DNA of 64,000 nt from Pelomonas sp. Root1237 (lineage in GTDB: Bacteria; Pseudomonadota; Gammaproteobacteria; Burkholderiales; Burkholderiaceae_C): positions 310,001-374,000 of the forward strand of contig NZ_LMDK01000018.1 in assembly GCF_001425055.1 (NCBI RefSeq). Reading direction: 5' to 3'. Positions 7,556 to 19,324 of the stretch are shown piece by piece (the first letter of the stretch is position 1; every line of letters begins with the position of its first letter). Below the pieces are notes generated by a model that worked only from the letters and a program-made list of their open reading frames with translations, was not told the DNA's origin and made no database searches. The translations under genes and the position numbers were made by a program.

Positions 7556-8665
7556 TCAGTCAGCCCAGCGCGAAGCAATGCCGCGCACCTCGTCCAGGCA
7601 GGCATTGAGCGCCTCGACGATGCGCGGGTCGAAATGGCTGCCGGCGCCGTTGCGGATGAAGGCCAGCGCCTCGTCGTGGCTCATGGCCTGCTTGTAGGGC
7701 CGCACGCTGATCAAGGCGTCATAGACGTCGGCAACGGCCATCAGCCGGGCCGACAACGGAATGGCCTCGCCGGCCAGGCCGTCCGGATAGCCACTGCCGT
7801 CCCATTTCTCGTGGTGGTGGCGGGCAATCTGCTTGCCGAAGGTCAGCATCGGACCGGCGTCGTCGCCAAGGCGGTCGATGGCGCGCTGCAGCAGGTCGGC
7901 GCCGTGTTCGGCATGGGTCTTCATGACCTGCCATTCGTCCGGCGACAGCTTGCCGGGCTTGAGAAGGATGGCGTCAGGGATGGCAACCTTGCCGATGTCG
8001 TGCAGCGGCGCGGCCTTGGCGAGCTCGTCGATGGCTTCGGGCGTGAGGTCCAGCGGCCCGTCGGGCTGGGCGGCGATCCACTGTGCCAGCGTGCGCACGT
8101 ATTCCTGGGTGCGCTGGATGTGGTTGCCGGTATCGGCGTCGCGGAACTCCGCCAGGCCGACCATGACGAAGAGGGTGGTGTCGCGCAACCGCTCGACCTC
8201 ACGCCGGCGCGCGCCCAGCTCGCCGCTCAGCAGCGCGTTGTGGCGCAGCAGGTGGTCCTCGGCCAACTTGAGCTGCAGATGGGTGCGAACGCGGGCCAGC
8301 ACGGTGGCGGGGTTGAAGGGCTTGTGGATGAAGTCGGCGCCGCCGACCTGGAAGCCGGCGCTCTCGTCCTCGGGCCGGGTCAGCGCGGTCAGGAAGATGA
8401 CGGGCACGCGGCGCGTGGCCGGATCGGCCTTGAGCCGGCGGCAGACCTCGTAGCCATCCAGCTCCGGCATCATCACGTCGAGCACGATCAGGTCGGGCGG
8501 TTGGCGGCGGCATATTTCCAGCGCCTTCGCGCCGCTGACGGCCAGCTGCACGCGGTAGTCGGGCTTGAGCACCTGAGCCAGCAGCGTCAGGTTGGCCGGC
8601 GTGTCGTCGACGACCAGCACCGTGGCCTGTGACGTACCGGTGAACTCGGGCAGCATCATCGTCAT
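7556..8665 (-). CDS. HD-GYP response regulator, predicted cyclic-di-GMP phosphodiesterase
   Basis: This 369-residue response regulator has an N-terminal receiver (residues 14-130) with acidic pair Asp20/Asp21, phospho-acceptor Asp63 in VLDVMMPELDGYE, Thr93 and Lys115. After a coiled linker follows an HD-GYP domain with all hallmark residues: His222-Asp223 in LHDIGK, HHHEKWDGSGYPDGL at 283-297, and DVYDAL. HD-GYP domains with this full set hydrolyse cyclic di-GMP. The gene ends a three-gene minus-strand operon and overlaps the upstream hybrid kinase by ATGA, so it is probably the output of that phosphorelay. Likely effects are on motility, adhesion or biofilm. Targets cannot be read from here. 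Confidence 0.92.
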   Translation of the reverse strand: MTMMLPEFTGTSQATVLVVDDTPANLTLLAQVLKPDYRVQLAVSGAKALEICRRQPPDLIVLDVMMPELDGYEVCRRLKADPATRRVPVIFLTALTRPEDESAGFQVGGADFIHKPFNPATVLARVRTHLQLKLAEDHLLRHNALLSGELGARRREVERLRDTTLFVMVGLAEFRDADTGNHIQRTQEYVRTLAQWIAAQPDGPLDLTPEAIDELAKAAPLHDIGKVAIPDAILLKPGKLSPDEWQVMKTHAEHGADLLQRAIDRLGDDAGPMLTFGKQIARHHHEKWDGSGYPDGLAGEAIPLSARLMAVADVYDALISVRPYKQAMSHDEALAFIRNGAGSHFDPRIVEALNACLDEVRGIASRWAD

Positions 8666-10692
8666 GGCGGGCTCGCGTCCTTGGTCTCACCGCGCAACGC
8701 GGCCTGGGCCTCGTCGAAATCGAAGCGTTGCATGGCACCCGCCAGGGCTTTGGCCCGCGGTGCCGGCAACATCTCGATGAAGGCGGATTCATGCTGCTCC
8801 CACAACGTCAGCGCATTGCTGTCGGCCTCGCCCAGCAGGGTGTCGAGCTCATTGATCAGCGTGGCCGGGTCGGCGCCGGGCGTTGTCCGGTTCAGGACTT
8901 TGGGCGGGGGCAGGAGCAGGTCGACCGGCAGAGGGCGGTCCAGGTCCAGCAGGCGGCGCAGCATGTGCGGCAGCAGGGGCTTGCTGCACAGGGCCTCAGC
9001 GCCCAGGCGCAATGCGCGCTCGCGCAGTACCGGCGTGTCGAAGGCGCTCAGCAGCACGGTGCGGCGAGCGCGCGACGGGCCGCTGTCGCGCAGGCTGGCC
9101 AGCAGCTCGCTGCCCTCCATGTCGGGCAGCACCCAGTCGACGATCAACAGGTCATAGGGCTGGCTGGCCGGCACGGTGACCAGGCGGGACAAGGCCTGGC
9201 GGCCCTGGGCCAGCAGGTCGACGCGGCTGGTCGGTGCCAGCGCCTTCAGCAGCGCGATCAGCGTCTCGTGGCCACCGCTGTGGGCCGCCTGCACCAGCAG
9301 CACGCGCTGCGGTGGCGGGGCGGGCGGTGGCGCCAGCTCAGGGCAGGGCGCCGGCGGCAGGCTGAGCTCGAACTCGCTGCCGCGGCCCGGAGCGCTGCTT
9401 GCCGAGAGGGTTCCGCCCATGCGCGCGGCCAGCGCGCGGCAGATCGCCAGGCCCAGGCCCGTGCCGCCAAAGCGTCGTGTCGCGCCGGCCTCGGCCTGGG
9501 CGAAGGGCGTGAACAGGCGCGCCAGTTGGTCCGGCGCCATGCCCAGACCGGTGTCACGCACGCGCAGGATCCAGCCGCCGGCCGCATCCAGCTCGGCGCT
9601 GAGCTTGACCTGTCCGGTTGGCGTGAACTTGACGGCGTTGACGAGCAGCTCGGTGACGAGCTGGGTGAGTCGCACCACGTCGCCGCGGCGCGCGCCCGCC
9701 GCGCCCAGCAGCTCCGGCGAGGCGATGTCGCAGACCAGTTCCAGCTGCTTGGCCTGTGCCGCCGGCCGCACGGCGTCGAAAGCACTGGCCAGCAGCTGCT
9801 CGAGGTGCAGGGGCTCGGCGGCGAGCTGCATGCGGCCGGTGTCGAGGTCGGCGTAATCCAGCAGGCCATCGATGAGCTTGACGAGGGACTCGCCGGCGCT
9901 CGCCACCTGCTGCAGCCGGCCGCGTTGCTCACCGGGCAGCCGCCCGGCCAGCATCAGCCGTGTCAGGCCGAGCACGGTGTTCATGGGCGTGCGGATCTCG
10001 TGGCCGATATTGGCCAGGAAGTCGGATTTGGCCCGCGAGGCCGCTTCGGCTGCGGCGCGCGAACGCTCCAGTTCGATGAGACGGGCTTCGATGAGGTCTT
10101 CGGCCGTGCCCAGGCCCCTGGCAGCGGGCGCGAGTTGGGTCAGGCGCCCGAGCTGGCGCGACAAGCCCCACAGCGCGACGCAGAACATGGTCTGGCACAG
10201 CCCAAGGTTGGCGATCAGCGGCCAGCCTTGCATCAGCCATTGCGGTGGCGTGCCGGAGAAGCGCAGCAGTGTGGGCGGCGCCAGCATGACGACGAGCAGG
10301 CTCAGGGAGATCCACAGCGCCTCGCGGGCGCGCCAGGTCGTGAACAGCAGCAGGCTGCCACCCATGGCCCAAGGCGCAAAGCTGCCCAGGGTGTAGAGGC
10401 TCGGTCCCGGGTCGGGCCGCAGCGTGAACACCAGCATGGTCAAGGAGAAGTACAGGGCCAGCAGCGTGGCGCCGATGCGCTGCCACAGGCGCAGCCGCTG
10501 CGGCCGCCGCCAGACGAGCAGGGCCAGGGCTGAGAAGGCGGTCGCGATCAGCGGGTAGGCGATGCGGTCGCTGGGCTCGATGACACCCATGGCCGCCTCG
10601 CTCGCCCAGGCGAACAGCGCGGAGGCGACGATGACCTTGAAGAGCCAGCGCGTGCCGACCGGGCCGAGGACGACGATGACCGGGGCCCTCAA
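8662..10692 (-). CDS. Hybrid sensor histidine kinase with degenerate receiver (kinase A)
   Basis: This 676-residue membrane sensor has five or so N-terminal hydrophobic segments (residues 15-180) without a large periplasmic domain. They are followed by HisKA with His231 in [14 protein letters not shown] and a complete ATPase domain ([31 protein letters not shown]). A C-terminal receiver at about 463-585 keeps Asp519 ([13 protein letters not shown]) and Lys571. Its first strand ends [11 protein letters not shown], so the two acidic metal-binding residues are missing. The last 60 residues share a helical tail with the other two hybrid kinases here. The start is a TTG overlapping the upstream stop as TTGA, with AAGGG about 8 nt before it. 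No HPt domain is present, so phosphate probably passes through a partner. Confidence 0.88.
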
Positions 10693-18500: not shown

Positions 18501-19324
18501 TGATGGACCTGCAGATGCCCGACATCGACGGCTTCGAGGCGACGCGGCGCATCCTCGCGCACCGGCCCGACAGCCTCATCATCGCCATGACGGCCAACGC
18601 CATGGAATCGGACCGCCAGGCCTGCCTGGCCGCCGGCATGCGCGACCATGTTGCCAAGCCCGTGGACCTGGAGCAGCTCGTCGCCAGCCTGCGCCGCCAC
18701 GTCGGCCCCATCCCCATGCGGCCGGCGCCGCCCCCGCCGCCGGTGTCGGCACCGCTGCTGGAGCGCGAGGCAGCGCTGCAGCGCCTGGGCGGTCGGGCCG
18801 CCTTGTACGAGCGACTCGCCAAGTCCTTCGCCCAGGACGCGCCCGCGGAGATGGACACGCTCAGGTGCCATCTGCAACAACAAGCCCTGGCCGACGCGAC
18901 GCGCGTGCTGCATACCCTGCGCGGCTTGGCTGGCGCCGTCGGCGCCACCGCGCTGGCCGTATCGGCCGGCCACCAGGAGTTGGCATTGCGCGAGGGTGGC
19001 AGCGCCAGCGCGGTCGATCTGGTCGGCTTGCAGGGGCTGCTCGACGCCAGCCTCGCCGTGCTGTCCGCCGCTGTCGTGCCCGGCCCACCGCCGCCCACTG
19101 CTCCCGCCATCGTGAGCGAGCCTCTGGAAGCACTGCGCCGGCTGCGCCAGTTGCTGGTCGAACGCAATATGCGCTCGGTCGCAGTCTGCGAAGAGCTATC
19201 CACGCAGCACGCCGACGCCTTCGGCACCGAGCTTGCCCAGCTTTCCACGGCGGTGGCGAAGCTGGACTTCGGCAAGGCCCTGAAGGCCTGCGACCAGTTG
19301 CTGGACCGCCTCAATCCCCGCTGA
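15554..19324 (+). CDS. Large hybrid sensor kinase: Cache-HAMP-PAS-HisKA-ATPase-REC-REC-HPt (kinase C)
   Basis: This 1256-residue inner-membrane sensor starts at a GTG overlapping the upstream stop as GTGA. Domains: membrane helix 19-41, periplasmic double-Cache-like region about 42-318, helix 320-340, HAMP 341-395, PAS about 405-530, HisKA His556 in [14 protein letters not shown], ATPase ([27 protein letters not shown]), receiver 1 (789-910, Asp845), receiver 2 (932-1050, Asp985), HPt with His1120 in [14 protein letters not shown], and a helical tail 1190-1256. All phosphotransfer residues are intact, unlike the receivers of kinases A and B. The neighbouring binding protein is the likely ligand presenter. 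HPt output could reach the receivers of the divergent operon or the adjacent receiver/pseudokinase. Confidence 0.92.

Follow-up and report, generated by a model that had tools for sequence, protein, structure and literature searches.

Do the six adjacent signalling genes at positions 7556 to 19324 of this stretch of the Pelomonas sp. Root1237 genome form one pathway from a periplasmic ligand to cyclic-di-GMP, or more than one? The window, by which we mean the whole 64,000-nucleotide stretch analysed (contig NZ_LMDK01000018.1, positions 310,001 to 374,000), comes from a 6.43 Mb assembly in 22 contigs. A first-pass annotation had read the genes as one dedicated system with a single relay ending on an HD-GYP regulator. 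The reading that we prefer, with a probability of roughly 0.5, is that the locus consists of two cognate phosphorelays placed head to head, with psK, a receiver/pseudokinase protein, as a possible coupler. The six genes form two divergent operons between a UPF0176/rhodanese gene and feoB; read away from the gap, the leftward operon runs kinB, kinA, HD-GYP and the rightward one psK, PBP (the periplasmic binding protein), kinC:

7556..8665, minus strand: REC-HD-GYP response regulator, 369 amino acids (aa), receiver Asp63, Pfam Response_reg and HD_5
8662..10692, minus strand: kinA, membrane kinase with Pfam HisKA (His231), HATPase and REC, no HPt
10689..13007, minus strand: kinB, Pfam HisKA (His83), HATPase, two REC (REC2 Asp511) and Hpt (His644)
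13147..14313, plus strand: psK, receiver/pseudokinase, Pfam REC (Asp51) and HATPase without HisKA, Gln152 at the His site
14310 (TTG) or 14313 (ATG)..15557, plus strand: PBP, Peripla_BP_5 binding protein (Pfam, 384 bits)
15554..19324, plus strand: kinC, with the order transmembrane segment, dCache-like region, transmembrane segment, HAMP, PAS, HisKA (His556), HATPase, REC1 (Asp845), REC2 (Asp985), HPt (His1120)

Open reading frame coordinates and Pfam matches bore out six adjacent frames with the content claimed for them; in kinC the HAMP, PAS, HisKA, HATPase, two REC and Hpt were matched and the dCache region stayed below the Pfam cut-off. The 1- or 4-nt overlaps reported for all within-operon junctions were also found: the four junctions are 4-nt overlaps, with 1 nt at psK/PBP only if PBP begins at the ATG at 14313. 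The divergent gap between kinB and psK measures 139 nt with kinB starting at 13007, which is its most likely start.

We examined 20 Pelomonas genomes and read the neighbourhood at each locus. The full six-gene set was present in 15 of the 20 (in G502 on two contigs), so that the conserved gene order the annotation had proposed to look for in relatives exists within the genus; in the genomes sampled outside it the set was not found. psK occurs in 19/20 genomes, with 82–97% identity (92 and 94% to Pelomonas sp. Root1444 and Root405); 16/20 have the HD-GYP orthologue. Two pairs were inseparable: psK with kinC (19 genomes) and kinA with HD-GYP (the same 16 genomes). The contig of G506 ends within kinB and carries psK, PBP and kinC there. 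G500 retains HD-GYP-kinA and psK-kinC, with kinB and PBP absent genome-wide as well; G501 has psK-PBP-kinC alone at the locus; and G507 has psK-kinC alone, the sole PBP relative in its genome being an UrtA-like protein. In G508 (83% complete) psK, HD-GYP and kinB were unmatched and PBP found only an UrtA-like protein, kinA and kinC not being part of that search. Because gene content differs in this way, psK-kinC is the stable core of the locus, and the other genes are conserved yet dispensable. The idea of one dedicated six-gene system is accordingly rejected: G501 and G507 have kept psK-kinC at a locus that has no HD-GYP, kinA or kinB, and in G500 and G507 the pair occurs with no PBP. G501 nests in the PBP tree beside G504, so its left operon was probably lost, as far as that tree can tell. 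The kinC of G507 is the first branch among the five kinC rows of its tree, and either loss or primary absence of the other genes is therefore possible in that genome. Outside the genus psK reaches at most 37% identity over its full length, about 42% in the kinase part and up to 61% in the receiver alone, and when 399 family genomes were searched for kinA, with two candidates scored in each, the only 5 to match at E<=1e-95 were all of this genus. All genome searches scored few candidates per genome (three for kinC-like kinases, four for PBP class-wide), which makes misses possible.

HD-GYP domains have an established catalytic role in cyclic-di-GMP breakdown, and in the regulator of the left arm the receiver (acid pair, Asp, Thr and Lys) as well as the HD and HHxxxGYP motifs are intact in 16/16 genomes. 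Its output part finds 4r8z and 4mcw as best solved chains, with Asp, by alignment, at the position of a Glu in 4mcw (FKDPETQNH); by its motifs the protein is likely a cyclic-di-GMP phosphodiesterase. The kinase motifs of kinA (HisKA and ATPase) are kept in all 16 genomes. Its receiver has lost the Mg-binding acid pair in all 16 (a pseudo-receiver) and, with no HPt either, kinA is not a complete His-Asp-His relay. kinB has two hydrophobic segments by hydropathy, and no HAMP or other Pfam sensor domain was found in it. Its phospho-acceptor His is present in 16/16 genomes, REC1 lacks the acid pair in 16/16, and REC2 and HPt are intact in the 15/15 genomes covered. In the window copy the motifs looked for are present, with REC1 dead and REC2 intact. 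The ATPase is less uniform: the N-box Asn is missing in 5/16 genomes (G495, G506, G492, G499 and G503); two others (G496 and G156) have an ATP lid 10–11 residues shorter, giving ATPase lesions in 7/16. In kinC every kinase, receiver and HPt site is intact in 19/19 genomes, a complete His-Asp-His relay. The earlier assignment of HPts, present in kinC and kinB and absent from kinA, thus stands, and its count of receivers needs correcting for the kinA receiver and kinB REC1. That account also missed three features of these proteins: a kinB ATPase eroding in some species, a kinA without a working receiver, and a psK that is a conserved dead kinase.

Selective constraint, taken as median ratios of nonsynonymous to synonymous substitution (dN/dS) over 105 pairs from the 15 six-gene genomes, differs widely along the locus. 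The HATPase of kinB has a median of 0.459, versus 0.258 in kinA and 0.194 in kinC; the HD-GYP protein gives 0.098 and 0.146; psK gives 0.042 in its receiver, 0.200 in the pseudo-DHp and 0.092 in the ATPase; and the values for PBP and the kinC dCache region are 0.353 and 0.407. Mean pairwise identity agrees with this pattern, in which the HD-GYP and psK outputs appear nearly frozen and the sensors, HPts and kinB ATPase fast-moving. The HPts (kinC 0.450, kinB 0.389) lie near the kinB ATPase value, which counts against reading much into it, and the ratio by itself is therefore no proof of kinB decay; it is the lost residues, not the ratio, that point to ATPase decay.

Relatives of the left arm in other genera suggest how such a division of sites could have come about. 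Among 200 family genomes searched, 58 had an HD-GYP match at E<=1e-100, and neighbourhoods were sampled for the top six genomes outside the genus together with a paralogue in G494 (L265). The best relatives outside the genus, with 65–73% identity, come from four genera (G046, G195, G011, G033 and G159), and these five orthologues (L256–L260) each adjoin one large hybrid kinase, with a 4-nt kinase/HD-GYP overlap in L257–L260 and an unclear start in L256. The HD-GYP relatives of L261 and L265 also adjoin a hybrid kinase. By Pfam, the kinases of L256, L257, L258 and L260 have HisKA, HATPase, two receivers and HPt, with HAMP in three; kinase, REC2 and HPt sites are all intact in L256–L260, and the REC1 acid pair in L256, L257, L258 and L260. 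The L259 kinase lacks REC1, and the L261 kinase lacks REC1 and a clear HPt. In a midpoint-rooted tree kinA, kinB and the L256–L258 kinases form one clade (support 99/96), and the HD-GYP receiver clusters with the receivers of L256–L260, five of the seven HD-GYP relatives (81/91). This pattern suggests that the left chain arose by the splitting of a one-protein relay into two half-working proteins. On the simplest reading of the alignments and trees, the relay kinase duplicated beside HD-GYP and decayed in a complementary manner, so that kinA would have kept the ATPase and kinB the role of His-Asp-His carrier.

Several observations weigh against this account of a split relay. kinA sits on a long stem (1.43), and long-branch attraction could aid its placement; the tree does not settle the branching order among kinA, kinB and the kinases of other genera. 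The receivers of L261 and L265 fall elsewhere in the receiver tree, which is built on 125 columns and has some long branches flagged. More directly, kinA may be the immediate partner of HD-GYP in place of kinB, because the two were never seen apart and G500 keeps both with no kinB anywhere in its genome. An alternative built on these facts, which we consider somewhat unlikely, denies the split altogether: kinA would pass phosphate straight to HD-GYP, or act on it as a phosphatase, and kinB would be an independent kinase where its ATPase is intact, the damage elsewhere being drift. In its favour, 9/16 kinB genes, that of the window included, are free of N-box and lid lesions. Drift in an unused gene would not be expected, however, to leave the kinB His, REC2 and HPt intact where the ATPase is broken, nor does it sit well with kinA, kinB and HD-GYP being kept together in the 15 six-gene genomes.

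On the right-hand side of the gap stands psK. Its receiver Asp, Thr and Lys are present in 19/19 genus members (the first residues are cut off in G502), the His of the H-box is replaced by Gln (Gln152) in 19/19, and the G2 box is degenerate, (S/R/G)EPGLY in 18/19 and GGSGLY in G507. In the 27 relatives from other genera whose loci were compared, the His and a GxGLG-type box are kept in 27/27, so the loss of the phospho-acceptor is derived and was then maintained. An AlphaFold model (pLDDT 79, pTM 0.44) shows a helical hairpin and an ATPase fold; its top fold match in the PDB is LvrB (8vc9, E 1.5e-21, TM-score 0.37), and DivL (4q20) was also matched. With the acceptor His replaced and the kinase fold kept in the model, psK qualifies as a pseudo-histidine kinase of predicted inactivity, and its N-terminal REC and C-terminal histidine kinase core give it the architecture of a hybrid response regulator, one that lacks the phosphorylatable His of the LvrB type. 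The psK receiver groups with those of three REC-GGDEF proteins near kinC-like kinases (L262, L263 and L266; support 99/95), and psK looks like the regulator of a cyclase-linked relay in which the cyclase has been exchanged for a dead kinase. Elsewhere, a PBP, a large hybrid kinase, a REC-HisKA-HATPase protein and a REC-GGDEF-EAL regulator lie in a row in L063 (9186-18749) and L068 (1343-10888); the Pfam HisKA of the L063 REC-HisKA-HATPase protein is intact, and the REC-kinase protein of this arrangement still looks active.

kinC has a corresponding ancestry, judged from a sample of four of the 12 matching genomes outside the genus. In the tree its kinase core has as sister group the kinases of L262, L263, L264 and L266, from other genera (100/100), and a REC-GGDEF protein adjoins the kinC-like kinase in L263 and L266. 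Two loci speak against a general pairing: in L262 the REC-GGDEF gene lies 2.8 kb from the kinase on the opposite strand, and the kinC-like locus of L264 showed no receiver neighbour. The dCache-HAMP part of kinC had no significant match in the L262, L263, L264 and L266 kinases and matches the corresponding parts of five binding-protein-linked kinases with 30–39% identity. Because core and dCache-HAMP part match different sets of kinases, kinC looks like a binding-protein sensor grafted onto the kinase core of a cyclase-linked relay.

The binding protein itself has an N-terminal hydrophobic segment (signal peptide), and its best solved relatives are 8tg1, the UrtA-named chains 7s6e, 7s6f and 8hic, and AmiC (1pea). 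Its relatives were sought in 300 order genomes (117 matching at E<=1e-50) and 369 class genomes, and the best loci outside the genus were counted, nine from nine order genomes (44–48% identity) and six from five class genomes. In 15/15 of these PBP is directly followed by a membrane sensor that has a region of dCache and/or HAMP type. Cyclic-di-GMP enzymes occur in 13/15 clusters, three in the same polypeptide and ten as neighbouring regulators, and among the 12 next-ranked loci used as controls neither a sensor kinase nor a cyclic-di-GMP gene stood beside PBP (0/12; in control L224 a GGDEF-EAL gene lies almost 7 kb away). The proposed tie of PBP to cyclic-di-GMP signalling is upheld by this comparison, and part of the association may be background, since several of the genomes carry extra GGDEF genes in the examined stretch. 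In the PBP tree the sensory rows are not a single clade: 8 of the 15 fall together with the genus proteins (93/87). The UrtA-like rows stand apart. By the neighbours of its relatives, PBP belongs with sensory and not with transport-type proteins. Its identification as UrtA was tried and rejected: it scores 346 bits against model TIGR03407, below the cut-off of 492.75, has different neighbours and falls on a separate branch.

The remaining two PBP loci, L217 and L218, have methyl-accepting chemoreceptors in place of kinases. L072 and L073, which rank next by score, are not counted among the 15; there Peripla_BP_5 is fused to a histidine-kinase-type ATPase (9491-11485, 664 aa, and 8431-10602, 723 aa, respectively). 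The window genome's own UrtA-like locus (L074) did not belong to the 12 controls; a receiver protein of 280 aa stands alongside. In L221 (4562-13516), from a distant family (f161) of the same class, a hybrid kinase, a REC-HD-GYP protein, a PBP and a dCache hybrid kinase stand in a row; of the arrangements seen beyond the order, this is the one most like the window.

As to what PBP binds, pocket positions mapped on AmiC by alignment are nearly constant in 13 UrtA-like and 15 sensory proteins and have diverged in the genus, with Gly for Tyr at 183 in 14/17 and Gly for Trp at 116 in 6/17. The aromatic pocket of AmiC, presumably Tyr83, Tyr104, Tyr150 and Tyr152 in its own numbering, is not reproduced: at the Tyr150 site Gly stands in the window and in 14/17 genus members, and at the Tyr83 site the window has Trp and 6/17 have Gly. 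Because of this divergence urea is a doubtful ligand, and some species could have lost ligand binding. Of the six genomes that have Gly at position 116, four (G495, G499, G503 and G506) also belong to the five whose kinB N-box is broken, an overlap that may reflect shared ancestry, these genomes being near one another in the trees.

How, then, would signals run through the locus? What the analysis shows is gene content, site integrity, descent, constraint and the promoter element described below; the scheme that follows is inferred as regards every phosphotransfer, a kinA-kinB mixed dimer, the mode of action of psK and the ligand. Because the psK and HD-GYP receivers belong to different partner lineages, psK is the most likely target of kinC, with HD-GYP supplied from the kinA/kinB side. 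In the left arm kinA would supply the ATPase and phosphorylate His83 of kinB in the mixed dimer, and phosphate would pass from there to REC2 Asp511, HPt His644 and finally Asp63 of the HD-GYP regulator, whose phosphorylation would alter cyclic-di-GMP breakdown. In the right arm kinC would receive the signal of loaded PBP through its dCache-HAMP-PAS region and pass phosphate by its own REC and HPt domains to Asp51 of psK. Because its output is a dead histidine kinase, psK would act by binding and not by phosphorylating: phosphorylation most likely exposes or hides a pseudo-DHp surface that docks a receiver or kinase, as with DivL. Its target could be the HD-GYP arm where that is present and something else in genomes without it. 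The fullest version of this scheme, in which psK represents a novel type of output for a relay, its cyclase exchanged for a dead kinase, and serves as a phosphorylation-gated docking protein linking the PBP sensor to a split kinA/kinB HD-GYP relay, we put forward as a tentative idea of fairly low probability.

The single relay to HD-GYP that had first been proposed fares only partly well. The REC-HD-GYP protein is intact in 16/16 and has a kinA/kinB-lineage partner in other genera; the psK receiver belongs to a different partner lineage. A branched form of it, in which the HD-GYP receiver is the common target of kinC (via PBP) and kinB, leaving psK as a side branch or phosphate sink, strikes us as rather doubtful, on a par with direct action of kinA. 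It draws strength from the psK and HD-GYP receivers being 55.6% identical, a similarity that also counts against two insulated relays because it would make cross-phosphorylation between the arms possible; from the divergent arrangement kept in 15/20 genomes; and from the 13/15 PBP loci with cyclic-di-GMP outputs, two of which (L219 and L221) have a REC-HD-GYP protein beside the PBP relative. Set against these are the separate descent of the two kinase/receiver pairs, the retention of psK-kinC without HD-GYP in G501 and G507, and the pairing of HD-GYP in other genera with a kinase of the kinA/kinB lineage, all of which favour two cognate relays.

The gap between the operons holds a further conserved feature:

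13082..13100, no strand assigned: conserved element CCCTGGGGAAAGCCCCGGG, with the 10-bp core CCTGGGGAAA at 13083-13092, 64 nt before the psK ATG
13130..13139, plus strand: -10-like element of psK, GGTTATTCTG, read as GGTTATYCT in 18 genomes and G502
13031..13038, minus strand: -10-like element of the kinB operon, CCATAATC, within a GATTATGG block largely kept in a 14-genome alignment

The core CCTGGGGAAA lies in the divergent gap of 18/19 genomes, 64 nt (15 genomes) or 65 nt (3) upstream of the psK ATG, once per locus stretch, and is absent in G507. NCC follows it in all 18. The core is still present in G501, where the left operon is missing, so the element serves the psK side at least. The longer string CCTGGGGAAANCC was found once in the whole of its own genome, so that exact matching there revealed no regulon, and a scan of 24 loci from other genomes gave a single occurrence of the core, in L220. 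The -10-like box of psK almost touches the ATG at 13147, and its transcript is therefore probably leaderless; a sigma-70 consensus scan of the divergent region found no promoter and backed neither -10-like element. A reversed, imperfect look-alike in G507, acccgggtttccctt, was considered as an inverted copy of the element and is too weak to claim. The weakest alternative, that the genes are neighbours by history only, sharing a divergent promoter region and no signal, with a movable HD-GYP arm, would suit the absence of that arm in G501 and G507 and its occurrence in other genera in stretches without a match to the flanking rhodanese and FeoB genes, but the fixed-distance element in 18/19 and the unchanged order in 15 genomes speak against it, and we think it improbable.

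The three kinases share a C-terminal extension:

8665..8895, minus strand: C-terminal helical module of kinA, about 60 aa, no Pfam match (hhalign of kinA with kinB, E 1.7e-9)
10692-10910, minus strand: homologous C-terminal module of kinB (hhalign), with a weaker counterpart in kinC at 19091-19321, plus strand

The kinA module is modelled with pLDDT 78.7 as helices only and contains a strongly conserved 21-residue stretch; a C-terminal module of about 60 residues was also found in related kinases of other genera. Its interpretation as a second HPt, for which no fold search was made, is unsupported: the sole shared His is Tyr in the kinA of G499, and the model is a small helical bundle. At the other end of the left operon, 24 nt after HD-GYP and on the same strand, lie the UPF0176/rhodanese gene and an alpha/beta hydrolase (5718-7531, minus strand), with matches to both in the loci of 17 genus genomes. 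We take the former to be a TrhO-like tRNA hydroxylase, and the left operon may continue into this tRNA-modification gene.

If the reading as two relays holds, the locus would bear on two long-standing questions of two-component signalling. It would offer a natural case of a one-protein relay becoming a two-protein relay, one open to direct comparison between species whose kinB ATPase is intact and species in which it is broken, and a natural case for the function of a response regulator with a dead-kinase output. It would also mark relatives of urea- and amide-binding proteins as sensory and not transport proteins, which could be used in annotating cyclic-di-GMP loci. In the open-licence PMC papers searched we found no account of this locus or of a REC-pseudokinase output of this kind, and for cyclic-di-GMP relays in Pelomonas none, with one review on biofilms.

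Each part of the locus has a counterpart among known systems. PBP shares its fold family with UrtA and AmiC and differs from them in scoring below the UrtA cut-off, in standing beside a sensor kinase and in its altered pocket positions. The left arm resembles RcsC/RcsD/RcsB, where one regulator is fed by a kinase together with a distinct membrane protein that carries an HPt and has damaged kinase features; RcsC reportedly keeps its receiver. RcsD is without the His, whereas kinB keeps His and REC2 and has its damage in the ATPase, and the output differs. The sharing of the Rcs relay between two proteins is described in PMC3762810. The right arm recalls NspS-MbaA of Vibrio, in which a periplasmic binding protein is encoded beside a membrane receptor governing cyclic-di-GMP, and binding-protein activation of kinases, cyclases and phosphodiesterases is presented as general in PMC9602780. 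Here, in contrast, a Peripla_BP_5 protein of UrtA/AmiC fold stands with a hybrid kinase whose likely direct partner is a dead kinase; the cyclic-di-GMP enzyme is in the other operon, and activation of the kinC periplasmic domain by PBP is predicted from adjacency and co-inheritance only. With LvrB of the Leptospira LvrA/LvrB pair psK shares the architecture of REC followed by DHp-CA (388 vs 382 aa), a likeness limited by the poor whole-chain superposition (TM-score 0.37) of what is the best PDB fold match by E-value. As PMC5863495 reports, LvrA phosphorylates LvrB in vitro and LvrB keeps a phospho-acceptor, His161, whereas psK has Gln in 19/19 and a degenerate G2 box. psK can also be compared with DivL of Caulobacter, another dead kinase core kept by selection, which according to PMC4211667 reuses that core as a sensor of a phosphorylated receiver; DivL differs in having PAS domains, a Tyr at the site and another locus, and psK carries its own receiver. 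The components are thus of known kinds; the novelty lies in how they are arranged, in an output fixed as a dead kinase and in the proposed splitting of a relay.

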